From assembly GCF_030463535.1 (NCBI RefSeq), contig NC_132892.1, forward strand, positions 27,274,269 to 27,338,268: a stretch of DNA of 64,000 nt, read 5' to 3'. The notes beneath the pieces are model-generated. The model did not search any database and was not told the DNA's origin. It was given only the letters and a program-made list of their open reading frames with translations. The position numbers were made by a program, and so were the translations under genes. Shown in pieces: positions 1-40,592 of this stretch. Each line of letters begins with the position of its first letter. Position 1 is the first letter of the stretch. Origin of the DNA: Salminus brasiliensis. Its lineage: Eukaryota; Chordata; Actinopteri; Characiformes; Bryconidae.

Positions 1-115
1 GGCCAGTGTCGTGTTGTAGTGATTAGGGCAGACAGCACCATCTACCCACCCATAGAGAGCATGGCCAATTGTGCCCTCTTGGATGTTGGCTGCTGACGGC
101 CGAGCTGCATAAAAA
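1..115 (-). mobile_element. tRNA-derived SINE fragment
   Basis: The stretch with 'caccatctacccaccca' and 'gagagcatggccaatt' resembles the body of the SINE family also seen at 40735-41020 and 42455-42690. It is cut by the window edge. Strand is taken from the 42455 copy, where the tRNA promoter boxes are readable. Family assignment rests on comparison inside this window. Confidence 0.5.
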
Positions 116-854
116 AAATAATAAATATGTATTGACAGAAATAATAGTTATATGATTAAATAAAATACCATGAAATACATCATAGAAAGTGTCTTTAAAC
201 TCTCTTTAACTCTCATTTACTGTTTCTGTAAAGTTAAATTATTTCATTTTTTCTAATTGGCTAGACACATTTTAATCTATTAGAAAGGAGGTGGAGCGTT
301 AACTAAAAACATCTGCTCCATTAAAGGAGCTCAAACTTAATTTTCCATTTAACTCAGATGTATAGAAAGCTAAAAAGGCCATAGCTTCAGGTATTTATTT
401 TACTATGTTTTCTGGTGAGTTATTACACGTATTATCTTGATAAAACAATTTTTGTAACGTTATCTCAAGAAAACCCTGAAGAAAAAATGCAAGGTCATAA
501 CCTAGTTTTCTGAGTGGTAGATAAGTCATTTAATATGTATATTCATTAAATTACACAGCTTTAAAAATGAGAAATTAAACAGAATCCCAGAAATTTGTGT
601 CCAAGTGTATTTAAATGAAGACTGTTCGTGTTAAAACAGACCCGTCAGTATTTTTTCAGGATTCAACACTAGATGGAGACACTCAACACTGTAGGTGTTA
701 ATTCTGCTCTGAGGATTCTGATATCACTGTTAATTGGATACCCCTAATAGAAAGCTGCTTGTCCTGTGTAGTTATATAGTCTAAGTGTTGTGATTGGTCT
801 GTTTATGCTTAGTGGAAGAGCTGCACTGACTCTGTATCGTTGCTATGGCAGCAA

Positions 855-950
855 CAAAATCGATGACATCACAATAGGCAACTCCGGGATGCACTTAAAT
901 AGTTCAGACAGTTCAAACAGAAGCTCATTAGGACAACGACCACCCTGCAG
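855..950 (+). promoter_or_regulatory. Putative promoter and non-coding first exon of the left unknown gene
   Basis: A CRE-like TGACATCA lies at 863-870 and a TATA-like 'ttaaata' near 895. A possible untranslated exon ends 'ccctgcag' at 950, before a GT donor at 951. An acceptor 'tcctttttag' ends at 1060, just before the start codon. The same signals appear in the opposite arm (16140-16240), including the CRE-like box, the TATA-like box and the donor, so they were kept after duplication. The transcription start is inferred. Confidence 0.45.
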
Positions 951-1087
951 GTAGGACCGCCCCCTCTACTCCTCCCAGCCACACCCTCTCTATTCTCTTA
1001 ATTATTATTAATAGGCAATAATTATTCATTCATTTTCTTATTGTGTTTTATCCTTTTTAGGATTACATCACTGTAGTGGTGGATATC

Positions 1088-2338
1088 ATGGAGGGCAGCA
1101 GTGAAATCTGCGATCTGGTGATATCTGCTGAAGAAAGCATGGAAAACATGGCTTTATATTCAGAAGAAAGTCTTTCTGTGCCAGACAAAATGGACACAGC
1201 TCAGCTGCCCAGTGAGGGTCTCCAGGCAGAGTCCCCCAAGGCTATAACCCAAGAACATCTGGACAGCACTGGAGAACTGATGGAAAGCAGCTACTTTCCA
1301 AGCAGCTATGTGCCCAGCAGCCTCGCCACTGATGAAGATGTGGAGATGCTTATGGAAATGGCTGAGTCAGGGATGATCATTGATTTAATGCGACTACCCC
1401 TTGGGACCTCATCTAGGGACCCGGTGGACATTATTGCTGAACTACTGATGAGATCCTGCAAGTCAGCTAATATTAACCCTGAAGAAGAAGAGGAGAAGAA
1501 GGATCCTTTGCCTGAGGAGCATGAGCAAACTGGCCTTGATAGAATTTATGAAATGGCTGTTTTGGACATCAGGCCTTTTCTTGCTGAATGCTCACCTATA
1601 AGCAGTGATGAAAGTGACACTTCTGAGGAACTTAGTGTCTCTAATGAAGAGGAAATGTCCCACACTGCAGAAGTCACCCCTCCCCCAGAACCAGTTCCTG
1701 TGGAGAAGAAAAAGAAGAGCTTTTTCCATTTCATTCGGCCAAAAAAAGCTTCTACCTTCAGGTTTGGACGAAAGGTATGGGAGCTTTTGCTTTAGTAGTT
1801 TGGTGATAAACACGTCATATAATTTGTTGCATTATTAATTATTGTGTAAATAATACGACAGATCATTTAGCTTGAGCTCTTTTATGATATTTCTGTGTTT
1901 GATGAGATCTTGACTTTTGTTTTGTTTGTTAAATGTTTGCTCATCAGAAGAAAGTATGTCCCGCTGGCCTGTCTGAAGATCATCAGCCCAGTACATCTGG
2001 AAATCATCTGGAATGTGAGTACATGAAACAGAACACACAGTTAGTCTCAATGCTAGACATCCTCATATCAGTGTTTCTTACTGCCTGCTGTTCAAGTCTC
2101 ATGAGATCACTTTTTATTGTTTGAATGTAAAAGTAAAGTAGAATACAGTTTGTTCAGTAAAGTAAGAAAACAGTTTCGTGAGTTGCTAATTTTCTGATTC
2201 ATCTTGTCTTTTGCAGCTGGAGAATCACCTGTTTCCGAGACGTTATGCATGAGAATTAGAAAGTATCTCTCCAGGATGATGGCAGCCATCCGCAGAGTCC
2301 TGCATTATCCCTTTACGCGGGTGATTCATCCAACTTAA
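1088..2338 (+). CDS. Unknown acidic/basic bipartite protein, left copy
   Basis: Three coding exons join in frame: 1088-1774, 1948-2014 and 2217-2338 (687+67+122 nt, 291 residues). Donors are GTATGG and GTGAGT; acceptors are 'catcag' and 'ttgcag'. I chose the ATG at 1088 because the frame upstream has only a GTG and the other copy starts at the equivalent ATG. The first about 200 residues are acidic and rich in Ser and Glu, with a core YVPSSLATDEDVEMLM followed by an MAESG-IDLM segment. After that come a Pro/Lys stretch, an aromatic-basic motif (FIRPKK then FRFGRK) and a C-terminal basic helix with SRMMAAIRR. There is no signal peptide or membrane segment. I do not recognise the family. It could be nuclear or a membrane-associated adaptor, but function is unknown. 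The intact frame in both duplicated copies argues that it is a real gene. Confidence 0.62.
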
Positions 2339-2436
2339 TCACTGCTTTTTGTTTACGGTGCTGTAAAAATGTCTAGATACAAATTTTCTAGATCCATATT
2401 TGTCACATAATTGTTTCAAATCTTCTGAGTAAAGGC

Positions 2437-3475
2437 CCTGATAGTCGAGGGCTTTCCAGAGAACTGGATAGAACGATCCGGTCCTCTCTGGAGTTTGGGA
2501 ACAGTCCTTGGTGATCAAGTGCTTTTCTGAGCACTGGTTAGAACCTTGGATTCATCAGCATTCTCCTGGTTGGAAGTTCCTGTTGCCCCTGAAGACTTGA
2601 AAGAACCTAGAGACAGAGTGTCAGCTGGCTAGTGCTGGGCAGAGCCTGGGCAAAGGGAGACAGGCAACCAGTTCTCCTCTCAGCACTGATTAGAGCCTTG
2701 GAAGCAGGTCCCAATGCTCCAACGCTCTCCTGAGTGCTGAGGAAAGTCTGGAAGGAAGTCCCTTTTGCCCTCAAAACTCTTCAGCAATGGTAGGTGCCTA
2801 GAGAAAGGGAGTCAGCTAGCCAGTGCACACTGGTTAACACTGGTCAGAGCTTTGGAAGCAGGTCCCAATGTTCCACTGCTCTCCTGAGTGTTGGCCACAG
2901 CCCCTGAGCACTGTGAGGAGCCTGGGAAGAAGGAGTCAGCTGGCCAGTGTTCTTATAGCACTGGTCAGAGCCTTGGCCCAATGCTGCTATGCTCTCCTGG
3001 GCTGAGCCAGGGAGATAGGCAGTGATGAGTGAGTGCTCTCCAGAGCACAACTCAGAGCCTTGGAAGCAGACCCTGACTGCCCAGTGTTTTCCTGAGTGCG
3101 GGGCAGAGCCTGGCAGCAGAAGTCCCCATCAGCCCGTGTGCAGCTGAATGTTCGGCAGAGCCTGGGCAAAGGGAGTCAGCCAACCAGTTCTCCTCTCAGC
3201 ACTGATCAGAGTCTTGGAAGCAGGCCCCGATGCTCCAACTCTCTCCTGAGTGCTGAGCAGAGTCTGGAAAGAAGTCCTCTTTGCCCTCAATACTCTTAAG
3301 CACTGGAGTCAGCTGGCCAGTGTTCCTATAGCACTGGTCAGAGCCTTGGCCCAATGCTGCTATGCTTTCCTGGGCAGGGCCTGGGGAACAGGCAATGAGT
3401 GAGTGCTCTTCTGAGCACCATTCTGAGTCTGAAGCTGACCCCGATTCCCCAGCACTCTTCTGAGTCCTGGATGGT
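2437..3475. repeat. Degenerate tandem satellite, left block
   Basis: About 1 kb of imperfect tandem units of roughly 45-55 bp, arranged as about 100 bp composites. Recurrent phrases are 'agagccttggaagcagg', 'ctctcctgagtgctg' and 'gagtcagctggccagtg'. It begins about 100 bp after the stop codon of the left unknown gene. Open frames inside it are by-products of the repeat period. A matching block in reverse orientation lies at 13520-14640. Confidence 0.8.
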
Positions 3476-3539
3476 TGGAGGACCTGCATCAACGTCCTCG
3501 GCTGCAGGGTGATCTGTCAGTTGACTTCCTTGGTTATCC

Positions 3540-3760
3540 ATCTTTCAGTTACCTGACTTACTCTTGTATTTGTGTTGTGCTATCCGGTGTCGACCAGTGG
3601 AGGATGGGTTCCTCTTTTGAGTCTTGGTTCCTCTCAAGGTTTCTTCCTCTAGCTCTGAGGGAGTTTTTCCTTGCGACTGTCGCCGTTGGCTTGTTCAAAA
3701 GAGGCTCGAACCCGGATTTCTACAAAGCACTATACAAATACATTTGAATTTCAATTATTG
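3540..3760 (+). mobile_element. Dispersed fish repeat, left copy
   Basis: Contains the phrases 'ggttcctctcaaggtttc', 'gggagtttttccttgcgac' and the tail 'caaagcactatacaaata', which are typical of a repeat common in fish 3' flanks. It ends in a SINE/LINE-like tail. A reverse copy lies at 13246-13450 in the other arm. I cannot assign the exact class. Confidence 0.6.
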
Positions 3761-4390
3761 TGACAAATATGCAAAGATAGGGATAATTATGGAAAATACT
3801 TTCTTACAGCACCGAATCTTGTAAAATAAAAATGATCTGCTGGGTAGTCTTATGTGTGTGTTTACTTCATTTGCTAAATTGCGTCTCTTTAAGTGGAACT
3901 AATGATAGGACAAAATAGAGCAAAAAGATCTCAAAATTGTATTTTGAATTACCACAAGCTTTTCCTAATGTGTCCATGTATACACTACAACTGTACAGTC
4001 TTTTAGGATGAATTCTCATTTGAAACTGTAAAATACAACATAATCTTTATTTAAATTTCTCTCCGGATTGTTCCAGCTTGTACAAATGAATTACATATAT
4101 CAGATCGAGGAATTTAAGAAAAAGAAATGTAGAATCAGAGAGTAAAAATATATATTATATATTTAATATTTATAGTATAAAACATCAAATAGTTTTATTC
4201 TGATGATATGATGTATACTGAAAATGAGCTAAAATTAAAACATGTTCAGGTTATTTCAAATCACACTTTAAAAGTACAATTTATTGTAAGTTTAGATCAT
4301 TATTTTATTTTGAACTGTACATAAAAAATACAGCAATAAAGACAGAAATAACATACCAAAATAAAAGTCACATGTAAATATGACATTCTT

Positions 4391-4396
4391 TTTATT
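4391..4396 (-). promoter_or_regulatory. Candidate polyadenylation signal of tspan1-like gene A
   Basis: AATAAA on the minus strand, about 175 bases after the stop codon at 4571. Other A/T-rich candidates are close, so the choice is tentative. Confidence 0.3.
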
Positions 4397-4570
4397 AGTA
4401 AATAACAGAAAATCTTCATTTGCTGTACAGGTAAAACATTCTCCACAGGAAACCTGGTTGGGTTGTGAAGAAAGCACCAATACACAGAAATACATTTGTC
4501 CTCTTACAAAAACGTCTGCTGTTTTACAGGTGTAATAACCTTGATGTTTAAACAGAATCCTATTGCAGCA

Positions 4571-7500
4571 CTAATTCTTGTATAATAAGACGGAGACAGT
4601 CATTGCACAAACCTAGAAGAGAAAACCCATCGTAAGGTCATTAGGTCATCATCTATCACACACATGTAGCATTGTAAGCATTACTAGATGGGTAATCTGG
4701 ATTCCTTAAGGATTTCATTCTATAACTAATCAAGTATATTGTGAAACATAATCTACTTTACAGAGCTAAACTTTACTCACATTTTCTCTTTAATTTCATT
4801 CTATATTGGTGCCTGCTATGCAGCTGATCATGCCTTTTGACTTTGGAGCTGTAGGACTTTTTGTTTGGTCGTTTTAGACAAAAATATAAAGGAAAGAATA
4901 GAGACACATTTTTCTACTCCTGTGCTGATAGATGCACAGGAAGTAGGAAGTTGTTTTATGGAAGTTCTATAGTTAGAAGTTTTTCAATGTGTCAGTGTTT
5001 TTAAAGTTACTACTGTTATACTTTAATTTTTAAACTTTAACGTTTGTCAGAATTTTTCCCTTTTTCCACCAATTTGGTGCTACCAAAGAACCCACCCGTT
5101 TACAACTCCCTCTAGCACTAGCCTCTCCACACCAGGAGGGTAAAGACTTAACACATGTCTCCACCGATACATGCATAGCCAGCCACCCCCGGTCACTGAT
5201 GCCAATGATTACATGGGACGCTACTTTCACTTGAACATGGTTCTGAAACACCAGCAGGAAAAGTAAATTTGGTGTCAAATACCTCTATGGCAGCGATGCA
5301 AATGGCCACTCCTGCCATCAAAGTTGAGTTATCCTCCACCAGTTTGATTACGGCACCAAAACAGCCTGATGTGTTCTACAAAAACAAAAAAAGAGATGAA
5401 TCAATTAATAGATGGGGTGATGCTTCGCAAATAGTGCCTGAAGGCATATTCAAAATAGTACTACAGGAGATGATGGTGATCATGTTGTTCTAAAAAAGAT
5501 TTTCCACCATATATGCATATATATAGCCATGACATATGCATGTTCAGTCAAAACAAAAAAACTTTGTACTTTTTTTTGCAACATTGCACTGGAAAGACAA
5601 GCTAAAACTACTAAAATGTTATTTGCATATTTACTTATTTACACCATTTAGCATTAATTTCAGTGTTTAGAAGCTCTGTGTTGGTTTAAGACTGTGATCA
5701 GAAAGTTGTTTCAGTACCTCTATCTTTGCTGCAGTCAGTGTACACTGTTCAGCTTTTTCATGGCAACAGCTGTTAGGGTACTGGTATAGTTTTTCAAAGG
5801 GGGAGCCGGTGAAGTCAGTGTAGTTATTGTATCCACAGCATTTCATCTGTAAGGGCACATAGACACACAAAAGGGTTAAAAGGGCTAATATGACTATTAG
5901 CATATTAAAGCTGATAGCTGTAGCCATGACATACATTCATACATTATTGGTGGTAACAGTTAGCATGACTTATTGCATTATGCTTAGACTTCATGTTTGG
6001 TCAAACTATGACATTTGTGGTTAGAAATACTGTAACACTATATTCACTAATACATGCACATTATTAATAAAGTCACATCATTAGAACTCTCTTTTACAAT
6101 GCCAAGTGCCTTTATTATTCTAAATCAATAAAATTAAAAATGCCCACAAAATCCTTTATTTAGTATTTACATTGTTTTTAAAAGCAAAAATAGTAAGTGT
6201 GTGACTTTGTGGCAAAAATGCTTAGCCATGATTTTACAATCTATGTAATGTTGTCTCTTAAACACTCTCGTTGAACTTTTATGGTGGCCTCTACTCTAAT
6301 TGGCTCATTTACACACAGAAGCCATGCTAAAATAGAAATATAAAAATATAAGTATAGATTTACATGCACAACATGTCTAAATGTTTGTGGACAGCACTTC
6401 TAGTTGATGCATTTATCTACTTTAAGCTGCACCCATTGCTGACACACATTAACCTATTGACAGCCTAATGGCAGGTGTGGGCTACAGGGGTATAATACCG
6501 TGCCCCAGCATTGAGCTGTAGAGCAGTGAAAGAACTGTGTTCTCTGGAATGATGGTGCTCCATCCAATATTTGGCTCCACTAACGCTAAAAAAAAGCAAT
6601 CAAATCCTCACAGCAATACTCCTCCAAAATCTAGTACAAAGCCTTCTTTCCTGGACAGTAAAGACAGTTACTCCAACAAAAGCAGGAGTCTTTTTAAAAC
6701 CCTTGATTTTGGTGTCCCAATACTTTTGTCCATATATAATACATAATAACGACAAAAAGGGGGCTATGTACCAGACTCATAGTCTCATTCCATGCGGTTG
6801 TGAAGACTTCATTTTCACCGTAGGATGACTTGATACTCTGAGCAACTTTTAGACGAATTCCCACCAACAGCTTTTCTGCCTAAAGAAAAAGGGAGAGTAA
6901 TTATAATTACTTGATCAAACCTAATTAAATGTCAGTTAATTCATTAGTAATTCAATAGAAAGTAGAGATCAGGTTTTGGATCAGTGAGAGATATCTGCCT
7001 GTTTTAAGATGTGCAAGATGACCCAGTACTGTTAAATCTTGAGCAAAATGTGGACATTTAATAAACGTCCGCCTACAGACCGACTGATTCGCTGAGGTCA
7101 GCAGTGATGGTCAAGAGCCTGTGTATCTTCGAAATGAAAAAATAAATGTTCTTTAAAATGTGAAACTCATTCTGATTCATTAAAAGAAAACAGGAAGCAA
7201 GCATCTTGGAAATTACAGCTTAGACGATTTTCCCTTCCCTTGGTCTGGTCAGTAAATGGTGGGAAATATGGAAACTTCCAGAGACAGTCACCACAGTGTT
7301 CCTCTATGAATCGTCAGGGCTCTATCAAAGATTATTTTCTGTACATGTTTGTGTTCTAGTTTAACTATGGTTTGATACTGCATATGTATGCAAATTACAC
7401 TAAACACTGATCAGCCATAAAAGTGTAGAGTATAAAGCCCCTCAGCATTGACTGTGGAACAGTGGAACTGCGTTCTCTGGAGTGATGGAGCTCCACCCAG

Positions 7501-10500
7501 TACCTTTGGGATGAGCTAGAGTGGCATGTGTGTTTCAGAACTGATCATCCAGCTTCAGTACCTGACCTCACTAATGCTCTTGTTGCTGCACAAAGTTCCA
7601 ACATATAGTGCGACGTCTTCAGTAGATGCTGTTTGTGTAGTAAAGGGGAACAAACACTCTATGAATAGCCCTGGTTTCAGAAGAAATGCTGAATAAACAG
7701 GCCTCTTTTAAACTTTTGACATTTGAACATCTCATAGCTCATTCCCATCGTTTTATTCACTCAGATCAGAATGGAGGGAAGACTGATAAGTGCTACACTA
7801 CATGGACAAAAGTACTGGAACACCTGCTCATTCACCATTTCCTCTGAAATCAAGGGTATTTAAACGAGTTTATCCTACTTTTGTTGGAGTAACTGTCTCT
7901 ACTGTCCAGGGAAGGCTTTCTACTAGTTTATGGCGCATTGCTGTGAGGACTTGATTGCATTCAGTTATTCACGAGTGTTAGTGAGGTCAGCTCATCGGGT
8001 CATCCCAAAAGTATTGGATAGAGCACCATCATTCCAGAGAACACAGTTTCACTGCTAAACCTAAAGTATGTACTTGGTCTGGACTTAAGAACTTTTCAGT
8101 TTGGTTCCTACCAAAAAAACAATTGTGAAAGGACCAAAGGCCATTTGTTCTGACCAAAATAGGTGGTCTCAGTGCAGATCATGGTTCAATTACAGGACGT
8201 TGAGGCAGGCTACTGTTACCCATTAAACAACAGAAGAAGAAAACTAACCTGTGTTTTGATGTTGTGCTACCTTGTCACAGTGTGCTAACATAGTGTATAT
8301 TTATAAGTACAGCTGCCAAAATAAAAGTGCAGGTAGAAAATAGGTCAAAAGCACTATATGAGAAAATGCTCACAGCTATATGGGCAGGATATTGGCCTAA
8401 ATGACTGCATTCACAGCAAACGTTCTGAATGTTACAGTTTTTGTTCACAGAACGTTCAATTTGTCCACTTTTCTGGATGTTTCTAGAATGTTTTATTTAA
8501 CTTTTTTAGTTTATTTCATGTGATTTAGTGCATTTCTATTGGTTTGTTCATCCAGAAGTATTTACACAGTGTATAGAGCATCTACAGGGTTTAAACAAGG
8601 GAGAAAACTAAACACTGACAAAAATGGAGACATGTTTTTTATTGGACAGCAGTGATATGGGCTTTTCACATTTGATGTAATGCAATAATTTATTATTCAT
8701 TTATAATTATTTCATAATTTGAACTTTTTATTATCTGTGTGAATTCAGAAAATATTCAACTTTATGTGTAAATAAATGCTCCAATTCTTAAGTTTATAAA
8801 ATGTTTTATGACCCATTCATGAAATATTGTTGTATAGTTTTTTGTCTACCTGGGAACGTTCTAATAACGTTGTGAGGCAAACCGTCATTGTGTAACACAT
8901 TGTCAGAACATTGCTGCACTCTAAAAATAAAGGTGCTACAAAATGTTCTTTGAGCGATTCCATAGATGAACCACTTTTGGTTCCATACAGAACTATTTTG
9001 TAATTGGGATATGGCAATTACACTGATAAAGAACCTTTGCATCAATGGAAGGTTTTTTGGGTCATTTAAAGGTTCTCCACACTCACGCAATATTAAATAA
9101 ACATGGTTCTTTATAAAACCAAAAGTGGTTCTCCCTCGAGATCCCTCAAAGATCCCACTGTAGAATCTTTATTTTTATAATGTTAGTATGGAATATTATT
9201 TCTGTAGCGTTACAGGCTAAATTTCCTTTTAGACCTTTTTAAAAACACTGATGAAAGTTCCTATTACATTCTCTACTACTTGGTTTAGAGGGCAAAGATA
9301 AAGTAACAACTCTTTTTATTTTGTAAAAAATACTTTTGGAGACTTTAAGCAATTAATAACAGTTAAGGTTTTATAATGCAAAATAAAGGCTACTAAGTAG
9401 CACACCTCAGTAGGTACAACTCAACAGATCACCTGTTACAAAGTAAAAATGAGCTGTGGAAGCACGTGGGGATGATTATATCTGTTAATAACGATACAAT
9501 TGTTGCACGACGAGAGCCACCCACCGAACTGACAACACACCGGCCACAATGTCAAATACGGAGAGAGAAGCACACACAGGTGTTGACGGCAGGGCGTAAG
9601 TATATCACGCAAAGTTCTCTAGCGCTCCCTAAATGTGGTACAATGTGGTACTGAAACTAACCAGATCAAATGTTTATAATGTAATAAATACTTGAACCAT
9701 GATTCTGCCTTTCAGAACATTTTATACCAGATATGTTCATGAGAACCAGTACAGTCACTGTCCTGACTTCCTTCTTCACTTCTTGTTAGTACAAAATGAG
9801 TGTGTTAATATTTTGTGTACCAACATGCCAGATTCACACTATAAAGATTAGTATATAGTCTTCTATGTACTTATATTTATAGTATTAGCATGTAGTACGC
9901 AATTGGGACGAAGCGTATAATATGTTCAAGCACTCCCCATCTGCCTGCTGTTCGTTTCCAGCGTGGCTATTTGCTGAAAACTGTAAGAGTATCAATATCA
10001 GTGGGTTTGTTTGTGAGGATGTCGAGACGAAAGAAAGGAGAGTAGACCGTTGGCTTACCGTTGGCTGGAAAAGTAGTATTAGCACTGCTCCAGCCACCTC
10101 AGCAAGGAAGACTATGAGGACAGTGATGAAGAACTGAAAATATGAAAGAAAGAAATATCAATGTTAAAAAAAAAGTTTTGGCTGGACCCCAGACGTATTC
10201 CTTTTAAGTTAGAACTTAAAACTCTTTAAGTTATTGACCGTAAAACCTATTATTCATAAACTACTACTGTATGAACTATAAAATGCATAACTGTGTGGAC
10301 CCACTTACTGATTCTTAGAGTTTACCATAATTTGAGGTCAAATGTCACTCACTGTAAGCAGCATACACTTGCTTTCACATAAGGCTCCACAGCAGCCCAG
10401 GAAGCCCATGATGGCCAGCACAGCCCCCACAGCAATCAGCAGGTAGCCCACGTTAACCAGCTGCGCTAAGACTGGGGGAGAGTCTTTAATGTGATCGAGC

Positions 10501-12385
10501 ACCGTCCGTAGATACTTGCTGTTCATTTCAACCAAAATTCCTACAAACACAGCCACTCCACCAGCCAACTGGAGACAGACGGACAGACAGGCAGATAAAA
10601 AACAAAAACAATACAATTAGAAGGCAGAAGTGAAAAAGGGAAGAATGGTTGGAGGTTGTTTGATTCCTTGTAGTACTCTATTTGAGGAAGCGGGCACTTA
10701 GACTGAGCCTACACAGCTCACACAAATTTTCCGTAGTGAGCTTGCACAGAATTGAACCCTTCTATGCCAGTAAATACACAGTAGTGACTAGCGCTCACAC
10801 CAGAGCAGTACGCAGCCACCTTAGCTCAGGAGTACATCAGCTGTGAATGATGAGGGAGAACTTTTTTGTGGGGAACCTTATAGTCCCAAGCCTCCTTCGG
10901 TTACCTTTAGGAAACCGTTTTTAAACTATTATCTCAATTATGTTTTTGCATTTCTGTGTTTATAGTGCTTTTGAGATGTTAGGTATGTTTTTACAGTGCC
11001 TATAAAACGTATGGTGACTATGAACTGGATACTTTCTCATTTTTCTCCTATTGCTTTTAGAAATGGAATCAGGGTCAGTATTTTTTATTTACAAAAATGA
11101 TCTTTATTTGTCAAAGTAAAAACAAAGCTCAACAATATAATGTCAGTTAAAAAAATATATATAAAATGACTGGCCTAATTTAACAGAGGTCCAGATTCAA
11201 TTAGTCCAATTAGTGCTAGTAGTCTCACAATTAGTGAAATGTTGATCACCTGAGTGCAGTGAAGGTGACTATCTAAAAGGTCCAGACACTAATTAATCAG
11301 TTAATCAGGCTACAAATACACCATGACAAATGAACACCCCTAAAGGTCAGAGTGGCCGCCAAGACACCTTTGTCTACTCTGAAGACATTAAAAGCTTCAG
11401 CAGCTGAGACAGGAGGGAGAAACAACTGTTCTTCGACAATTGTTCTTCATCAGTCAAAGTCATCAGTCATCAGTCATTATGGGAGAGTGGCTAGGACAAT
11501 TACATTTTGATTACAGTTTATCCAAAGGCATGTGGGAGACCCTGAAAGAAGGTCGGCTGAAAGAAAGTTCTTTGGTCGGATGAAACCAAATTGGAGCTTC
11601 TTGGCAATCAGACTAGACACTATGCTTGGTGGACACCAACAGTTTTTTAAGTTGTGGAAAAAGACAAATTATATGGACCATGAAATCCATCTATAAAAAC
11701 AATAATAGGGGATAACAGCCACATTTTATCGACATACACAAACACAGAATGGCTTGTAGGACAAAATAGTCCCCAAAAAAAACTTATTTGACATATTTAC
11801 CACTATTAACCATTTTATGATTAAGGTTATGACAATAGTAATTTCCTATTACCAGTTATTAAATATATAACACTTAAAGGTGACTGCATTAACAGCATGT
11901 TTTCTATTAATTAGGCATATTAATACAGAATTTAGCTGATGTTAATGGCAATGTATAGAAATATGTAATATTTTACTTCTATCTGTTTAATGAACACAAA
12001 GCCAGACCCTCAACAAGAAGGGGTAATATTTTGATTTCTGTTCAAGTTCCAAATACATCTGGTCTCTAGCTTAGTTGTCTAACAACAAAACCTAGCTTAG
12101 TTGTTTTGTAATTAGAATAAATAGCCTTTTTATGAAGAAGATAATGCTGGACAAGAAGTTTGAAACCTTTGGACATACAGGGCAGTTTTTCTGAACAGGG
12201 ATTAAGCCTAGTCCTGAATTACAGAGCATTTTAAATGGAAATCCTCCATTGAAAAGAACATATAGTCCAGGACCAGGCCATTTTAAGAATCATCAACAAC
12301 ATCACTGCTGTGTTAATAAAATAAGATTCTTACTTACAAATATCACACCGTTAAAGACACACATAATTGTTTTCAGGATCCACAT
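4571..12385 (-). CDS. tspan1: Tetraspanin-1-like protein, copy A
   Basis: Seven coding exons join in phase 0: 12338-12385, 10353-10568, 10059-10133, 6772-6879, 5718-5846, 5283-5375 and 4571-4612 (236 residues). Human TSPAN1 has 241. Tetraspanins organise membrane microdomains with integrins and other partners. Features seen are four hydrophobic segments (about residues 5-25, 57-77, 89-110 and 210-233), the GFLGCCGA motif after TM2, the large loop with CCG at 152-154 and six loop cysteines (152, 153, 176, 177, 184, 197), and NYTDF next to CCG as in TSPAN1. An untranslated stretch with an acceptor at 12411 precedes the ATG, so a non-coding exon lies further upstream. The gene sits in the spacer between the inverted arms. 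Exon 4 length and phase match copy B (17728-23819). The C-tail is short (LLYKN). Whether it is expressed cannot be seen. Confidence 0.85.
5045..5235 (-). mobile_element. SINE fragment in intron 6 of tspan1-like gene A
   Basis: Resembles the body of the SINE at 42455-42690, sharing phrases such as 'ccctctagcactagc' and 'aggagggtaaagac'. The tRNA head is missing. It lies between coding exons 6 and 7. Confidence 0.5.
6370..6748. mobile_element. MITE with mariner/Tc1-like ends
   Basis: One end reads 'catgtctaaatgtttgtgga' and the other 'ggtgtcccaatacttttgtc'. These are diverged inverted ends of a non-autonomous DNA transposon common in fish. The interior includes a 'gcagtgaaagaactgtgttc' stretch and no transposase. 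It lies in intron 4 of tspan1-like gene A, ending close to exon 4. Related copies in this window are near 7430, 7790, 38150, 44870, 46175, 48300 and 49120. Confidence 0.65.
7403..8060. mobile_element. Nested or broken MITE fragments
   Basis: At 7403-7425 there is a terminal motif 'actgatcagccataa', like the element at 50275-50815. Fragments of the 6370-type MITE follow (7430-7600), then a further stretch at 7785-8060 opening with 'acatggacaaaagtact' and ending with 'gcaccatcattccagagaac'. The order implies insertion and rearrangement. It lies in intron 3 of tspan1-like gene A. Confidence 0.5.
8920..9185. mobile_element. Short palindromic MITE with 'aaaataaaggt' ends
   Basis: Begins 'taaaaataaaggtgctac' and ends 'agaatctttatttttata', with internal 'ggttcttt' and 'aaagaacc' repeats. 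This is typical of a fish MITE that can fold into a long hairpin. Relatives lie at 22935-23150 and 50105-50275. Confidence 0.6.
10990..11660 (+). mobile_element. Degenerate Tc1/mariner-type transposon
   Basis: Opens with 'acagtgcctataaaacgta', a terminal motif of fish Tc1/mariner elements. At 11525-11630 it retains a transposase-like stretch: 'ggcatgtgggagaccctg' and 'ttctttggtcggatgaaacc', then 'tggcaatcagactagac'. The reading frame is broken and the middle is deleted. It lies in intron 1 of tspan1-like gene A. Confidence 0.6.
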
Positions 12386-13245
12386 CTTGACAATGGTTTC
12401 CCAACGTATTCCTGAAAAAGACCCACAGAGTAAACGTAACTTAGAAGTGCCTGATGTATAATGCCTGAGAGACACTGAAGTCCCCTTTCATGTGTCTCAC
12501 AGTCATTTGTACAGTGCTGATCCAGTCACTTCCTCATTGATACACTTCTTTTATTTTTGGCATCAGAGACAAAGTGCTTGCTGTCATCTTATGGAAGAAC
12601 ATAGCAAATGTGGTAACTACCTTTAGGTTAATGGGACGTTTTTTGGGGGAAAAGATGATGTCAGAAAATTGATTATGATGTTTTGGCTGCTGTTGACAAA
12701 CTGAAAAACCTTTGACCTATAATGTGAATATGACCCTATTTCCTATTTTCTGTGATGAAGCTTATTCATCTCTCTCTTTTCTTCAAGGAAGGAAAGTGAA
12801 AAGCATTTCCCTACAGTCCTTCCACATTCTTCAACCATTCCTAAATGCAACAGATTATGAAGGACCAATCTGGACAGAAACCTTTTTAAATAAAGATGAT
12901 TTCCAAGGTAAAGTCCAACTGACTGAAAGACATGGGTCCCCTACTGTTTCACAGTTCCAAACAATAAGTCATCAGAAACTGTTCAGTTAAAGAGTCTATG
13001 TGGAAATATTAAGAGCAATGTGTGCCACGTTACAAAAACAAGTTTGGGGAAATATTTCTCAGGATAGATTTCAGAAAAGATAGACTTTTTTATTTTATTT
13101 TTTATTTTATTAAGATTCCTCTTAATGAGACTAAAGGTTTTAAGTGAAATAAATACACACACACACATAAGACTTCCCAGCAGATCATTTTTATTTTACA
13201 AGATTCTGTGCCCTATCTTTACATATTTGTCACAATAATTGAAAT

Positions 13246-13450
13246 TCAAATGTATTTGTATAGTGCTTTGTAGAAATCCGGGTCCGAGCCTCTTTTGAGC
13301 AAGCCAACGGCAACAGTTGCAAGGAAAAACTCCCTCAGAGCTAGAGGAAGAAACCTTGAGAGGAACCAAGACTCAAAAGAGGAACCCATCCTCCACTGGT
13401 CGACACTGGGTAGCACAACACAAATACAAGAGTAAGTCAGGTAACTGGAA
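13246..13450 (-). mobile_element. Dispersed fish repeat, right copy
   Basis: Reverse-orientation partner of 3540-3760, with the same tail and the same 'gttcctctcaaggtttc' core read on the minus strand. It was carried along by the inverted duplication. Confidence 0.6.
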
Positions 13451-13519
13451 AGGATGACCAAGCTGAGGGTTTTACTACCTGTCTGCCTGCAGCTGAAGAT
13501 GTTGATGCGAGTCAACCAA

Positions 13520-14640
13520 CTGCTGAAGACATCCCCATAAGCCCACCAACCAAGTCTCTGCCCAGTGCTCTGGAGATATCTGGAACATTGGGGTCTTCCC
13601 TTAAGTCTTCCCAGTGCTCAACGGCGTCAAGATGACTGAGGCTCTCAGACTCAAAAGAGCTCTGGGAAATCGGGGTCTGCTTCCAAGGGTCTGAATGGTG
13701 CTCAGGAGAGCACTCACTCATTAATGCCTGTCCCCCTTGGCCTTGCCCAGGGACACATGGTAGCATTGGCCCATGGCTTTTTACCAGTGCTAAAGGAAGC
13801 ACTAGTTAGCTTACCCCTTCTCCCTAGGCTCATCACAGAGCTCAGGGCCTCTGGCCAGCACTCAAGAGAGCAATGGAACTTCCAACACTTCAACCAGAGT
13901 TAAGAGGAGCACTGGCTAGCTGACTCCCCTTCTCCAGGCTCTTCTTAGCACGCAACAAAGCTTTGGAGCATCGGGGCCTGCTTTAAATGCTCTGATTAGT
14001 GCTGAAAGGAGACCTGGTCGGCTGACTGCATTCCTCTGTGTGAGTTCCTCTCTGTGCAAAGCTCCACACAGGATGATGGGGTCTGCTTCCAAGGTTCTGG
14101 CTGGTGATCAGTACAGCACTCCCTCATGAAGGCCTGTCCCCAAAGCTCTGCCCAGCACTCTGGAAAGCATTGAGGCCTGCTTGCAAGCCTCCGACCAGTA
14201 CTGAGCAGAGCAATGGTTGGCTGACACCATTTCTCCAGGTTCCTACCAGCATTCAGGGGCATCGGGGGCAAAAAGGACTTCCTCCCAGGCTCCGCCCAGC
14301 ACTCAAAAGAGCGTTGGAGCATCGGGGCCTGCTTCCATGGCTCCCATCAGTACTAAGAGGAGCACTGGTTGGCTGATTCTCTTTGCCCAGGCTTCACCCA
14401 GTGCTCAGCGGCTAATGGGGTAATGGAGGCTTTACCCCAGGCTCTGCCCAGCACTCACAAGAACGCTGGGGAACCGGGGTCTGCTTCCAAGGTCCTGACC
14501 GGTGCTCAGGAGAGCACTCGCTCATCAAGGACTGTCCCCAAGCTCTGCCTAGCACTACATCTGAAGTCCTGTCCAGTGATCTGGAGAGCCCTCGACTATC
14601 AGGGCCTTTACTCAGAAGATTTGAAACAATTATGTGACAA
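13520..14640. repeat. Degenerate tandem satellite, right block
   Basis: Reverse-orientation counterpart of 2437-3475, made of the same 45-55 bp units (for example 'gcttccaaggttctg' and 'cccagcactc'). It has a different number and arrangement of units. Open frames of 70-111 codons within it show repeat-derived, low-complexity translations and are not genes. Confidence 0.78.
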
Positions 14641-14700
14641 ATATGGATCTAGAAAATTTGAACATAGACATTTTTACAGCACCGTAAACAAAAGCACTAA

Positions 14701-15959
14701 TTAAATTGGTTGAATCACCCGCGTAAAGGGGAAATGCAGGGATCTGCGGATGGCTGCCATCATCCTGGACAGAAACTTCTGAATTCTCTTGGAAAGCGTC
14801 TCTGACACAGGTGATTCTCCAGCTGCAAAAGACAAGATGAATCAGAAAATCAGCAACTCACTAAACTGTTTTCTTTCTGTTTTCTTTTTTTCTGAACAAA
14901 CTGTATTCTACTTTACTTTTACATTCAAACAATAAAAAGTGATATTATGAGACACACTTGAACAGCAGGCAGTAAGAAACACTGATATGAGGATGTCTAG
15001 CATTGAGACTAACTGTGTGTTCTGTTTCATGTACTCACATTTCAGATGATTTCCAGATGTGCTGGGCTGATGATCTTCAGACAGGCCAGCGGGACACACT
15101 TTCTTCTGATGAGCAAACATTTAACAAACAAAACAAAAGTCAAGATCCCATCATACACAGACATATCATAAAAGAGTTCAAGCTAAATGATCTGTCTTAT
15201 TATTTACACAATCATTCATAGTTTAACAAATCATATGAGGTGTTTATCACTGAACTACTAAAGCAAAAGCTCACATACCTTTCGTCCAAACCTGAAGATA
15301 GAAGATTTTTTAGGTCGAATAAAATTAAAAAAGCTCCTCTTTTTCTTTTCTACAGGAACTGGATCTGTGGGACAGTTTCCTTCTGAAGGGGCAGGCCTGG
15401 ACATGATGGGATCTTCCTCTTCTTGGGAGATGCTTTTTCTCTCCATAGTGTCCATCACCACATTACTTTCATCACTGCTTAGTGATGAGCATTCTGCAAA
15501 CAACACCCTCACGTCCAAAACAGCCTTTTCATCCTCAAGATCAGTTTGCTGTTTTTTGGGCAGAGGATCCTCCTCCTCTTCTTCAGGGGTTGCAGACTGA
15601 TCCAACAGATGGGCCGATTTAATGGATCTCTGCAGTAATTCGCGGATGATGTCCACAGAGTCCCTAGATGATGTCTCAAAGGGAACTTTCATTAAGTCGA
15701 TGGTGACCCCTGACTCAGCCATCGTCATTAGCATTTCCACGTCCTCATCAGTGGCCAGGCTGCTGGGCACGTAGATGCTCTCTATTTCTGATTCTCCAGC
15801 ACTGTCCAGAAGTATTTCTGGACTTACTGCCCTAGGGGACCTTGTCTGGAGCTCCTCAACGGACGTCTGAACTGTCTCCTTGTCTTTCACAGCAGGACTT
15901 TCATTAGATGCTGAAGCCATGTTTTCCATCCCTTCTTCAGCAGATATGATCAGATCCAT
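14701..15959 (-). CDS. Unknown acidic/basic bipartite protein, right copy
   Basis: Three coding exons join in frame: 15279-15959, 15039-15105 and 14701-14822 (681+67+122 nt, 289 residues). Exon 2 and 3 lengths and all intron phases equal those of the copy at 1088-2338. The ATG at 15959 opens the protein; upstream in frame there is only a TTG. It shares the YVPSSLATDEDVEMLM core and TSSRD segment, the RSFFNFIRPKK motif and FRFGRK. It also shares the C-terminal SRMMAAIRR helix. Exon 2 differs by 1 of 22 residues and exon 3 by 8 of 40. Exon 1 differs more, with length changes in multiples of three. That pattern fits selection on the protein. The family is not recognised. Confidence 0.62.
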
Positions 15960-16139
15960 GATAACTAGCAAGTTTAATGATGGACAGAATTAAATATGTA
16001 AATATAATCATTAGACCTTAAAGCTCATTATTAATTGTGGTCAGTCTATCAATCATCTGTTAGACTAAATATTAATACAATTATTATGGCTATTAATAAT
16101 TATTAGGAGAGTAGAGAGAATGAGGCTGGGAGGAGCAGA

Positions 16140-16240
16140 GGGGCGGTCCTACCTGCAGGGTGGTCGTTGTCCTATTGAGCTTCTGTTTGAACTGTCTGAA
16201 CTATTTAAGTGCATTCCAGAGGTGTCTATTGTGATGTCAT
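16140..16240 (-). promoter_or_regulatory. Putative promoter and first exon of the right unknown gene
   Basis: Mirror of 855-950. A CRE-like TGATGTCA lies near 16232, a TATA-like 'ttaaata' (minus strand) near 16202, and the donor-containing exon end 'ccctgcag' at about 16152. Inferred from conservation between arms. Confidence 0.4.
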
Positions 16241-17134
16241 CAATTCTGTGGCTGCCATAGCAACAATACAGAGTCAGTGCAGCTCTTCCACTCAGCATAA
16301 ACAGACCAATCACAACACTTAGACTATATAACTACACAGTACAAGCAGCTTTCTATTAGGGGTATCCAATTAACAGTGATATCAGAATCCTCAGAGCGGA
16401 ATTAACACCTACAGTGTTGAGTGTCTCCATCTAGTGTTGAATCCTGAAAAAATACTGACGGGTCTGTTTTAACACGAACAGTCTTCATTTAAATACACTT
16501 GGACACAAATTTCTGGGATTCTGTTCAAGTCCTAATGTTCAAAACTTTTTCTCACTGGCTGCAAAATGCTTTATAAAGTTTAGAAACAGCACAATTAAAT
16601 GCAGAAATAAAGTTAGGATTTCTTTCTTGAGATAACATTGCAGAAGTTGTTATTTTAAAGCAATAAAATGAGTAATAACTCACAAACAAACTTATTTGTA
16701 AACATATTAAAAAGCCTGTCTAAGTTAAATGGAAAACTTAGTTTGAGCTCTTAATTTTTAGTTTTTAGTTTAGGCTCCACCTCCTTTATACTAGATGAAA
16801 ATGTGTCTAGACTATTAGATAAAAAACAAACTGCCTTTAAAAGAAGATCTTATCAGCCTTAACAGACACAAAATCAGTCATGTGACACAACAACCGCCTT
16901 GATAAAATGTAATGTTTAATTTAACTTTACAGAAACATTTAGTACAAACATCTCATTACAGTTCAATAGTGACAGAAACAGTACAAACATGTGGAGTAAA
17001 GTTCTGTTATCATGCAGTAAAGAGCTCAGCATAACTGTGCCTTCTCTTCTCTTCTGTTCTTTTACTAAAAGGATAAGGTAATAATAATTCATCTGTATTG
17101 ACCTAATCAACACGGACACACAAGGAGTGGTTTC

Positions 17135-17140
17135 TTTATT
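17135..17140 (-). promoter_or_regulatory. Candidate polyadenylation signal of tspan1-like gene B
   Basis: AATAAA on the minus strand, about 590 bases after the stop at 17728. Tentative. Confidence 0.25.
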
Positions 17141-17727
17141 TTAACTACCTGACTTCAAGACCAGATTCTGTAGTTTACAGTAGTTTACTGTAGCCATATA
17201 GCCTATCATGCCCAGTAGGTCAACCGATCAAGGCATTTAACTTCCATCACTGATTGAAAAAAGGATGCGTTTGAAGATGAAGACAAGACTGGAGTCAGAA
17301 TGTTCTAACTGACATCATTTTCAGTCCTTCTGAACCAGCTACTTCATCAAACAGTGCTAATGTTGCTAATAATGAATAAATGCTAATCAGTGCCCACTGA
17401 CAGAAATAAGAATGTGCTAGCTGGTTCCTACTGGATTTGATTCATTATTAGCCAAGGTTAGCATGTTCAGGTGAAGCACCTCCAGCAGTTTGAACTTGGT
17501 GAAAAACTTGATGCATTGCATTGACTTGAAAGTGTCCATCATTTCCACATGTCTGAAACACTCTGTAGGTTTCCTCTCCTTTCCTTTGTTGACTTTGGCA
17601 GCAACTGTGTTGATGTGACGTGTTCATGTGAAAACGATGAAGTAACTTCAGGGCATTACTTTTCTTTTCAGGGTAGTTCAGTGATGAAGTGCATATATCA
17701 GTGATTGGTGAATCACAGGCTTTGAAA

Positions 17728-20700
17728 CTATTTTCCCACGTTATTATACAGGACCATGGAGACGACCATTGCAGCAATCTGGGAAATGAGATATAAACCA
17801 TAACATGAGAATTACAAAGACCTTTTATAGTTTTGCAACCACACAATATTTTTTAAGTATTTCTGTGAGACTAATAAACCTGATCCACCTTAAATGGTGC
17901 AGCAGTTACTTCAACTGGAGCACAGGAGCCAGAGTGTAACTGTTGTTCCATTTAAGGTGGAATGGACAATCTAAATCTGAAGCCGGCAAATTAGATTATT
18001 CCTGTGAAAAATATGGTCACTTTCTTGTTTTACTTTCATTTGTTGACGTGACTTTAAGCCAGCTATCAAGACTGTGTCCTCAAACCTTTCAGTCTGCCCT
18101 GCCTGTCGTCAGGTTGCCAGCTATTCAGCATCAGAGTCAATATCCACTCATAAGAATATTTGTTTTCATTTTCTACATTCTGAAATCAAAGCATCAAATC
18201 TTTTTGCTATTGTTTATTTAAAAGGTATCTCGAAAATATCCACCCACTACTTCATCATTTTCACTCATGGCTGCACTTTCAAACTGTCACAGTTTGGTAG
18301 GCCATATTTTTACTTTTCCTCTTTGGCTCTGAGACTGCTGTTTGTTTGTGGGTTTTCGTTTAGTTTTTTTGTAGAAGGCAATAACACAAAGAAAAATATT
18401 TCAGTTGGCACCTATGCACACTTATAATAGGTTATGGTTATGGTAAGTATAATACCTCCAAAGCAGCGATTCCGAGCCCCACTCCTCCCAGTACAATGGC
18501 GTTGTCCTCCACCAGTTTCACTATAGCATTAAAACAGCCACTCACATGCTGCAAGTAGAAGAACACAAACACACAACAGTTGAAGAAGCATATTGATTAC
18601 TTCTGAATTTAATATGACAGATTTTGCCTTATATAAACTTATTTGCTGGTGCTTTCAAAATGATTCAACATGAGATCTTCATTCTCTGATACAATGGTTA
18701 GAAAAGAAAAGAAAAAGATATATCTAACTGTATCCATCATATACTTCAATGTAATTATATGTAATGAATGAAGTGATAAGTTTAGTCCATTCATCATAAA
18801 ACATTCACAGAATACATACATATATAATATATTAATCAATCATAAAACCTTACATTTCAATATTACATTCTTCTTCTGTTTTAATATATATTTAGATGCA
18901 AAAACAACGAGTTGTTAAAATGTTTTGTTTATTTTTTTAATTAAATGATCATGTTTTATTTCTACCTCATTTTATTTTACCATTACTGTTATTTTCACAA
19001 TTTGACATTTTGGGGCAATTTGCAGAAATACTATAGACAAGTTTAGTTAATGTGGAAATTTTTTATTTTTATTTTTTAACTTATTTTAATTTAGAAAACC
19101 TATAAAATGTAGTTTTAAAAGGGTTGCCCAACACCACAACAAACTTTGTAAAAAAAAAAACTTTCTGGCTGGTTGGTCACTGTCCTGCAGAGATTTTACT
19201 TGCCTAATTAAACTCAGCTGATAATGATCTATCTCTTAATGATTATCTTAATGATAATCAATGATGATGAGTTTGCATCTCACTATAATTTTCAGGAAAG
19301 GCTTAATTAGAAGCGAGTAGTATCCTAGTAAAACCAAGTAAAATTATTGAAATATTTTAGAGTTTAGAGACAATCCAATGATAAACATACTTTGTACACA
19401 AATTCCATTTTTATTCTGTTCTTCTTTTTTTCAGCTCCTGCACTGCTTTGCTGTTGTTCTTACCTTATCGTTTAATTGTAGACCAAAAGGGCCCAAATAC
19501 AGAAGACGAAGTCTGACAAACTTTACTTCCTGTACTGATAGATGTTGGAGGCACTAAAAAGTTCTACTGCATGTCTATCCATTCAGAACTTAAGAGGTTT
19601 TATACTATTCTGCATTTTGATTGAGATGAGACTGGGAGACAGTACCCCGTCCTCTGCCTGTGATTGATCACACAATCGAGAGTCTTCAGAACAACAGCTC
19701 ACAGGGTACCGCAAGGTGTTCACTACAAAAGGGGATCCTTCAAAGTCAGTGTAGTTGTTAAATCCACAGCATTTCAGCTAAAAGGAAACACGCACACAGA
19801 GTTAGGTACTATTATTTAATTGAGACACACAAATACAACAGATTCACATCTACCAACATTACTTAATATGACATACCTGAGACATAGTTTCATTCATCAG
19901 AGCTGTAAAGCTGCTATCCTCTCCATATTTGTCTTTGATGCTCTTAACAAATTGGTTATTAAAGTTTTGTAACAGATCTTCTGCCTGAGAGAGAGAAATG
20001 CATAGTGATGTTTCTTGTGAGAGTATTTTGCACAGTTCATGTCTCTAATCAGAAGAGGGCGCTAAAGAACCTTCTCTTCACCAATTTAAACATCTCTTCA
20101 CACATCTCTTCTACAAGCATTTGCTTTTTATAGAACCAAAACTGGTCCTTCTTTGTGCATCACTAAGAGAAAATATTATTTATGTTTAAAATATTAGATA
20201 TTTTGATTGCATTTCATAAATCAGTGAATCAGTTTATTGGAATGAACCTGTTCAAAGAACCGATAACCTAGTTGGATCAGCTGATTTTTGGTGTTTTTTC
20301 TTACCAAGGGCTGGAACACAAGGACAACCACAGCCCCGGCCACCTCAGCGATGAAGATGATGAGCACGATGATGAAGAACTGAAAGAACAAGTACACACC
20401 AATTACATAAAAGAGGGTGAGGATTGTTGTCCTACTATTAAATCTTGTATTACTTCCATACATCTCCTATGTAGACATGTGGTCAGGTGATAGCATCTAA
20501 AAGGTCTAACAGTGGTCTTGTAGTTGCTCTTATATTTGGTATAAATATCACATTTAAAATCTGAGTTAGTCTTAGGTTTTAAGTTTTTTTATTTTAGACT
20601 GTCTGATTTGTAAGATTCCTTTTCTAATAAATGTAGGCTTAGGCAAACATTATTCTTATTATTTAATAAGAATTAATCTAATCTAAACTGTTTAAGTACA

Positions 20701-21431
20701 TTAGCTATCTGGAAGTTTTATATAAAAAGAGTGAGAATATAATACACACACCACTTTAATGCAAAACTATGCCATCTGCTGGTTGCATTTCTTCAATTTC
20801 CATTCATTTCATAGATTTTTCATATCAGTTAAACACCAATTCAAGCTGGAATTTTAGTAAAATGTCCTCTTCTAAACTATACATGCACAATAACTATGAA
20901 TGCAGGACACCAGCCAAACATTTTGCTGAGCCACAGTACTGTGAGGAATACAGCTGAACTACAAATCCCAGATTGGGTGCTTGGGATGTGTGAGAGTGAT
21001 GACATCAATGGTAATACTGACATAGAATCAAATATTGAGTTAAATAGGGGGGTTACGCAGCATGTTTGTGTTGTATAGCCTGTGAAGTGCATCAGCCCCA
21101 GTTCATTGGTAACACAGTTTCCTAAACCCGAAGGTCACTCACCGTGAGGAGCATGCACTTGCTCTCTGTTATGGCTCCACAGCATCCCAGGAAGCCCATG
21201 ATGGCCAGAACAGCCCCCACCGCGATCAGCAGGTAGCCCACATTAGCCAGCTGCGCTAACTCAGGCGGCGCGTCTTGAATTTCATTTAATACACCCAGCA
21301 GCGAGCTGCTGTCCACTGCCACCCAGATACCTACACCCAGGATCGCACCACCTGCCAGCTGAGAAACAGAGAGAGATTATAAGTATAAGAGGAATAAAGT
21401 GAGATAAAGAATGAGGAGTCATTTTGCTCAG

Positions 21432-21472
<41 letters not shown>

Positions 21473-21473
21473 A

Positions 21474-21524
<51 letters not shown>

Positions 21525-21648
21525 ACTATCTACCTATCTATCTATCTATTTATCTATCTACCTATCTAACTATCTACCTATCTATCTATCTATCTATCTA
21601 TCTATCTGTCTGTCTGTCTATCTACCTATCTATCTATCTATCTATCTA

Positions 21649-21700
<52 letters not shown>

Positions 21701-21717
21701 TCTATCTATTTATCTAT

Positions 21718-21800
<83 letters not shown>

Positions 21801-21902
21801 TACAGAGAGATAATAAGTATAAGAGGAATAAGGTGAGATAAAGAATGAGGAGTCATTTTGCTCAGATCTATCCATCTATCTATCTGTCTATCCATCCATC
21901 TA

Positions 21903-21935
<33 letters not shown>

Positions 21936-33569: not shown

Positions 33570-40592
<7,023 letters not shown>

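Follow-up and report, generated by a model that had tools for sequence, protein, structure and literature searches.

Gene conversion that homogenises neighbouring paralogues and spares a coding exon is known from the opsins. In the primate red and green opsin genes, copies of which lie about 24 kb apart, the introns have been kept alike by conversion and a coding exon has diverged, and selection for two different proteins is described there as the reason why the exon was spared (PMC3924837). A similar pattern is found in the fish Salminus brasiliensis, in a stretch of 64,000 nucleotides (here called the window) at positions 27,274,269-27,338,268 of C15, a 36.9-Mb contig of a genome with 103 contigs totalling 1.066 Gb; the G+C content of the window is 0.31-0.47 in 2-kb steps. 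Two inverted arms near the beginning of the window each carry a copy, L or R, of an orphan gene, and as in the opsins the flanking introns appear homogenised and a coding exon spared. The primate genes differ in having known functional exon sites and cross-species proof, whereas L and R are inverted and non-coding tracts have escaped conversion as well. The new part is the gene family to which L and R belong, together with its amplification.

Other described systems share some of these traits. The GOT1 paralogues of the copepod Tigriopus likewise show islands of divergence amid conversion-homogenised sequence and are reported to lack indel differences (PMC3728101), whereas exon 1 of L and R has about ten gaps that may block pairing. 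The LWS opsins of Xiphophorus are fish paralogues arranged tail to tail, for which conversion has been deduced in related species, but the gene is unrelated and the excerpt makes no mention of chromosome-wide amplification (PMC3087554). Ampliconic sex-chromosome palindromes combine inverted gene-bearing arms and exchange with a multi-copy family on one chromosome; such a family is found here too (17 places), but palindrome arms are near-identical whereas the arms of L and R are old and mosaic, with 87/191 and 56/127 sites differing in the diverged tracts. A literature search for inverted conversion in teleosts found nothing.

The reading favoured here, with a probability of roughly 0.75, is that L and R are inverted paralogues homogenised by interlocus gene conversion that spared exon 1, that the donor was R-type or the exchange preceded the split of R from its amplified relatives, and that the R locus seeded an amplicon. 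With a control taken from within the genome itself, the locus would be a clear example of paralogues homogenised in their regulatory and 3' parts with the main coding exon spared.

Two inverted arms with mosaic divergence

An earlier note on this DNA had described two inverted, diverged arms of about 3.6 kb, and these arms are real, as confirmed by inverted-repeat pairs and by a full alignment of both. Among the 25 inverted-repeat pairs of at least 40 nt in window positions 1-18000, 22 connect 247-3861 with 13159-16824, several of them out of register inside a repeat block, and the remaining three lie within the spacer. Three in-register stretches of the arms, 433, 407 and 240 nt long, show 92-97% complementarity, and homology extends slightly outward to an exact 21-nt match (221-241 with 16937-16917), between which and the remainder of the arm R carries additional sequence. 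A haplotype or palindromic mis-join is a standard concern for any inverted repeat, and nothing specific was found for it; with mismatch reaching 45% in the diverged tracts, flanks that differ and a window lying inside a 36.9-Mb contig, an assembly artefact is very unlikely and can be given almost no weight. The features of the arms are as follows:

218..3865, plus strand: arm L, limits approximate (inverted-repeat search, full arm alignment)
13130..16940, minus strand: arm R, limits approximate (same basis)
578..1013, plus strand: low-divergence tract of L with promoter, 5' untranslated region (5'-UTR) exon (donor after 950) and start of the 5' intron; 19/435 sites differ
16091..16525, minus strand: counterpart of that tract in R (coordinates carried over from repeat pairs)
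1088..1774, plus strand: predicted coding exon 1 of L (diverged tract), 687 nt
1948..2014, plus strand: predicted coding exon 2 of L, 67 nt
2217..2338, plus strand: predicted coding exon 3 of L with stop, 122 nt
15279..15959, minus strand: predicted coding exon 1 of R, 681 nt
15039..15105, minus strand: predicted coding exon 2 of R, 67 nt
14701..14822, minus strand: predicted coding exon 3 of R with stop, 122 nt
1768..2470, plus strand: low-divergence tract of L, exon 1 end to proximal 3' UTR (divergence model, gene model)
14570..15285, minus strand: counterpart of that tract in R (coordinates carried over from repeat pairs)
2471..3542, plus strand: degenerate repeat block of arm L, probable 3' UTR (repeat comparison, lag analysis)
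13451..14569, minus strand: degenerate repeat block of arm R, probable 3' UTR (inverted-repeat pairs, lag analysis)
3543..3861, plus strand: repeat of arm L resembling a short interspersed nuclear element (SINE), with AATAAA (3825) and a TGTGTG run (sequence read)
13159..13450, minus strand: SINE-like repeat of arm R, with AATAAA (13195) and a TGTGTG run (sequence read)

The arms form a mosaic in which divergence changes abruptly. About 25-45% of sites differ in coding exon 1, the 5' intron and the upstream stretch, and 3-9% in the promoter, in introns 1 and 2 and in the 3' end with its SINE-like repeat. A two-state hidden Markov model was fitted to 1687 aligned non-coding and fourfold sites, the repeat block at 2471-3542 being excluded because its units allow no one-to-one alignment. 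Apart from the low tract at 578-1013 it gave a second one at 1768-3861 (43/829 mismatched) and high tracts at 358-577 (87/191) and 1014-1753 (56/127); the outermost part is mixed, with 247-309 low (8/63), 310-327 high (8/12) and 328-357 low (3/30). Compared with a one-rate model, 2 lnL rose by 240, and no gain above 4.1 occurred in 40 shuffles, which were fitted with fewer iterations than the real data. Fifteen of 55 conservative fourfold sites in exon 1 differ between L and R, and the divergence of intron 1 (0.092) and intron 2 (0.030) stands against an exon-1 synonymous divergence (dS) of 0.54.

The earlier view that the arms had diverged over a long time with their frames kept holds for the frames, which are intact and under constraint, but the divergence is uneven, tracts of about 45% alternating with tracts of about 5%. 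A promoter, a repeat block and a dispersed-type repeat are indeed present on both arms, although the block, which had been called a satellite, is so degenerate that Tandem Repeats Finder made no call on it at score 50; lag analysis gave weak periodicity peaks at 51, 101 and 152-154. Within this window the SINE-like 3' repeat is confined to the two arms. The AATAAA and subsequent TGTGTG run at the close of each arm suggest that the repeat block and the SINE-like repeat probably belong to the 3' UTR. Outside the arms, window positions 11-111 or so are a dispersed repeat, to which 41 of the 44 genome matches to window 1-600 belong, spread across many contigs, both counts being lower bounds.

The gene models of L and R are predicted, and coding constraint on them is supported. 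As had been claimed, each arm has three exons with identical phases at both junctions; the coding introns are GT-AG, and on both arms the 5'-UTR exon stops at the sequence CTGCAG/GTAGGA, its last position being 950 in L and 16153 in R. The products, 291 aa for L and 289 aa for R, have no internal stops, and 196 of 274 aligned codons are identical. Over the whole coding sequence dS is 0.44, the non-synonymous divergence (dN) 0.195 and dN/dS 0.44 (95% bootstrap 0.31-0.62), and so below the value near 1 that, together with a lack of transcripts, had been named as refuting; the notion of inward-pointing genes with intact frames is supported. A DNA-only alignment places ten gaps in exon 1, eight of which are multiples of three, and the other two (7 and 2 nt, close together) jointly preserve the frame. 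Open frames, frame-keeping gaps and dN/dS together reject a pseudogene on either arm. Positive selection as the cause of the lower likeness of exon 1 is also out, as exon 1 has a dS of 0.54 in itself and a dN/dS of 0.42 (Nei-Gojobori method, NG86).

A form of decay in which one arm gene or the whole family is functionless and a single constrained copy lowers the pairwise ratio has several points in its favour: one copy at a dN/dS near 0 and another at 1 would average about 0.5, the ratio between R and the amplified copies described below is 0.67-0.97, and of the 14 copies modelled 5 are either broken or without a complete model. Yet both frames are open at a dS of 0.5 with gaps that keep the frame, and in 2000 runs of a neutral simulation that counts substitutions only, without indels, stop-free copies made up 8.4%, 0.85% and 0.2% at 0.1, 0.2 and 0.27 substitutions per site. 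Moreover, dN/dS is 0.47 both for L and for R against an older family member (L033), and decay on these grounds is improbable.

Probable exchange between the arms, measured against older copies

A whole-genome search with the R protein, in which all 54 first-look candidates were scored and which distant members on other chromosomes may escape, gave 49 matches at 17 places, 49/49 of them on C15. These places are R, L, twelve amplified R-like copies, two older copies (L033 and L034, located at 24.98 and 24.40 Mb) and a weak relic found at 24.33 Mb. The earlier note had an unknown gene on each arm, which stands, except that the gene also occurs outside the arms, at 15 other places on the same chromosome. 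For each of these 15 places outside the window 8-9 kb of surrounding sequence was taken.

The older copies serve as a yardstick for the rate at which each segment evolves. The divergences (K) of R from L033, L034 and L, and the ratio K(R,L)/K(R,old) over shared columns with its bootstrap interval, are as follows:

Promoter: 0.41, 0.31 and 0.046; ratio 0.13 (0.06-0.22)
Intron 1: 0.25, 0.27 and 0.092; ratio 0.33 (0.17-0.57)
Exon 2 and intron 2: 0.21, 0.20 and 0.038; ratio 0.20 (0.08-0.36)
SINE-like repeat: 0.23, 0.23 and 0.035; ratio 0.15 (0.06-0.28)
Unexchanged 5' intron: ratio 1.05 (0.59-1.74)
Coding dS: ratio 0.63 (point estimate)

One would otherwise be free to propose that the promoter, introns and 3' end are functional and slow-evolving and that no exchange took place, the more so as regulatory DNA is often conserved and promoter identity peaks around the core region. 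The older copies, however, are far from R in just these segments (K of 0.31-0.41 in the promoter, 0.25-0.27 in intron 1 and 0.20-0.23 in exon 2 with intron 2 and in the SINE-like repeat), and no Rfam family matches the window at gathering score, which leaves constraint largely refuted and decidedly improbable. A known structured RNA in the introns was rejected by the same search (0 Rfam matches at gathering score). With ratios of 0.13-0.33 against 0.63 for coding dS, the segments are not slow in general; the likeness of L and R most likely comes from exchange, and exchange between the arms is strongly supported.

In a tree of exon 1 with 7 of the 12 amplified copies, R groups with the amplified copies at 100/100, and a grouping of L with R is rejected (p value of the approximately unbiased test, p-AU, 0.0002). 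In a tree of the low-divergence islands with 5 of the 12, L and R sit on short branches beside the amplified copies. R differs from two of these, L022 and L027, by a K of 0.038-0.078 in the promoter, in exon 2 with intron 2 and in the SINE-like repeat. A late transfer from L to R should have separated R from the amplified copies in the islands, and no such separation is seen in these three segments, which points to an R-type donor or to an exchange before the split; we infer that it took place at roughly the time when R and the amplified copies parted.

Several observations weigh against so simple an account. The coding dS ratio of R-L to R-old (0.63) has no interval, and the control covers no exon 3 or 3' UTR, where L033 or L034 has no match. 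Support for L with R in the island tree is only 70/77, and R with the amplified copies to the exclusion of L is not rejected (p-AU 0.24); the discordance between the trees is in branch lengths, not topology, and the island topology by itself does not need exchange. Most amplified copies have an intron 1 that lies far from R as well as from L (in L022 at a K of 0.24 and 0.20), and L027 has a 3' UTR distant from R (K 0.22), so that other exchanges or rearrangements blur the picture. Identity in exon 3 is 0.86 for R-L and 0.90-0.93 for R and the amplified copies; in the 3' UTR it is 0.92 as against 0.81-0.98. As these two segments are intermediate, or bring R nearer to the amplified copies, more than one event is likely. 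All the evidence for exchange comes, finally, from a single genome.

A mosaic of this kind would also arise if L were a recent copy of R into which the exon-1 region had been swapped from an unsampled older member, and diverged members do exist in the family. L exon 1, though, does not group with the two older copies (dS of 0.69 for L-L033 against 0.46 for L-R), the second diverged, non-coding tract (358-577) would require a separate event, and no donor was found among the 17 places; such a chimera is about as improbable as decay.

Under the favoured reading, gene conversion with exon 1 spared, an inverted duplication of an orphan, fast-evolving gene would have produced L and R, the synonymous divergence of exon 1 being now about 0.5. 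Interlocus gene conversion would then have made three parts of the arms alike: the promoter together with the 5'-UTR exon, the segment that begins at the end of exon 1 and reaches into the proximal 3' UTR, and the 3' end with its SINE-like repeat. Coding exon 1, the greater part of the 5' intron and the upstream stretch would have stayed diverged. The donor would probably have been R-type sequence, unless the exchange came before R split from the amplified copies, and the R locus or a close relative would have seeded the amplicon, now at 12 places at 10-18 Mb. Selection for two different proteins may be one reading of the sparing of exon 1. Nevertheless, the non-coding tract 358-577 and the 5' intron escaped too, and the ten or so gaps of exon 1 may hinder pairing, so that chance and heterology suffice.

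A family amplified on one chromosome

The existence of the family and its amplification are plain from the genome search. The twelve amplified copies lie at 10.19-18.24 Mb of C15, all on the minus strand, and they share with the window one stretch of the R locus:

12876..16415, minus strand: R-locus stretch present in amplified copies (sequence comparison with copies at 10-18 Mb)

The match to R begins at 16415 in nine of the twelve, at 16215 in two and at 16328 in one, and in the four copies compared that far it reaches 12876, beyond the inner end of arm R. Where the twelve match each other over the greatest length, identity is 92-99.8% and the matches extend past the homology to R; one pair, over 28 kb compared, has a 15.2-kb block in common at 98.6%, with tandem arrays on both sides.

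Intact models were obtained in 9 of the 14 copies modelled (L035 excluded), namely eight of the twelve amplified copies, with products of 297-298 aa, and L033, with one of 305 aa and a shortened end. L031 is broken, and L029, L030, L032 and L034 are without a complete model, L029 and L030 having a stop codon soon after the start. Between R and the eight intact amplified copies dS is 0.09-0.12 and dN/dS 0.67-0.97; this weak constraint on the branch between them makes the function of the amplified copies uncertain. For L021-L026 against L027 or L028 dN/dS is 0.45-0.57.

A bolder proposal, tentative and rather doubtful, is that the chromosome carries an ampliconic, fast-evolving orphan family engaged in intragenomic conflict, sex-linked or drive-related, in which the inverted pair would be the source, sharing its promoter and 3' end by conversion, diversifying its main exon and having fed copies into the tandem-array region. 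Whatever its cause, the locus exposes a gene family found on one chromosome only in this search and amplified beside tandem arrays, and if the chromosome proved to be linked to sex, or the genes to be expressed in the germline, the origin of ampliconic genes could be studied here in a tractable fish.

The surroundings of one amplicon copy, at 16.07 Mb of C15 (L036, L024 and L037), have features of their own. Beside the copy (L036:150-8264) lies an array of units of about 142 bp, a mini-exon-like row in which each unit has sequences resembling 3' and 5' splice sites (TTTT..GTCGTACAG and ACAGGTAAGTG). The opposite flank (L037:4557-9999) is a tandem repeat with a 2,480-bp unit, its units 99.7% identical. 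Open frames in this amplicon, read by eye, look like fragments of Tc1-type transposases.

The protein and the neighbouring genes

Proteins L, R, L022 and L033 have no Pfam match at cut-off. The N-terminal two thirds are acidic, one segment is basic and aromatic, and the C-terminus is a basic amphipathic helix. In L, with R alike, the acidic part has 205 residues (net charge -39), the segment counts 26 residues with five phenylalanines and a net charge of +11, and the helix combines a net charge of +6 with a hydrophobic moment of 0.64. Across L, R, L022, L027 and L033, 117 of 327 columns are invariant, most densely near SSLATDED and SEDHQPS. A peripheral membrane or nucleic-acid binding role may be guessed from this combination, at low confidence.

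The effector segment of MARCKS is short, basic and phenylalanine-rich, and L has a segment of that description. MARCKS was nonetheless rejected, the similarity reaching 14.7 bits against a Pfam cut-off of 24 in L only and not being listed for R, L022 or L033. An N-terminal Met-Gly serves myristoylation in MARCKS; at the second residue L has E and R has D. Likeness to p101 and to an exocytosis protein was set aside as below cut-off or at an E value of 0.17, the latter that of the single match of R in a structure-library search. A relative on viral contigs was sought through 136 pattern matches, 0 of which were confirmed. Literature searches returned the gene conversion pattern in other genes and, among the titles listed, none on this gene, which leaves room for an earlier description of the family.

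The spacer between the arms holds a tetraspanin gene, and a second one follows outside arm R:

4571..12385, minus strand: tetraspanin A, seven coding exons, 236 aa, in the spacer (PF00335, 148.2 bits)
17728..23819, minus strand: tetraspanin B, seven coding exons, 243 aa, outside the arms (PF00335, 169.8 bits)

The cut-off of PF00335 is 32.1 bits, and A and B cover positions 1-224 of the 225 in the profile, the query for B being one residue off the window translation. The spacer gene, presumably tspan1, is complete, as the earlier note had it, but is one of a tandem pair and not a lone gene. Both translations, read by eye, fit the large-loop pattern CCG..[DN][WY]..PXXCC..C..GC, known as 6-cys-a (PMC2965184). 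With a dS of 0.95 between A and B and 142/236 residues identical, the tetraspanin duplication looks older than that of the arms, and a joint duplication of tetraspanin and arms is ruled out. An intron of tetraspanin B has a long ATCT/TCTG microsatellite (window 21432-21980).

Farther along the window, three of seven open frames matched above cut-off, all on the minus strand: Ras-family exons at 34460-34792 and 40314-40592, and a PLD-like exon at 47823-48164, from genes which we take to be Rab3 and Pld6. Two more minus-strand frames, at 55691-56167 and 62214-62591, have a long identical leading translation, which suggests a recent direct duplication about 6.4 kb apart.

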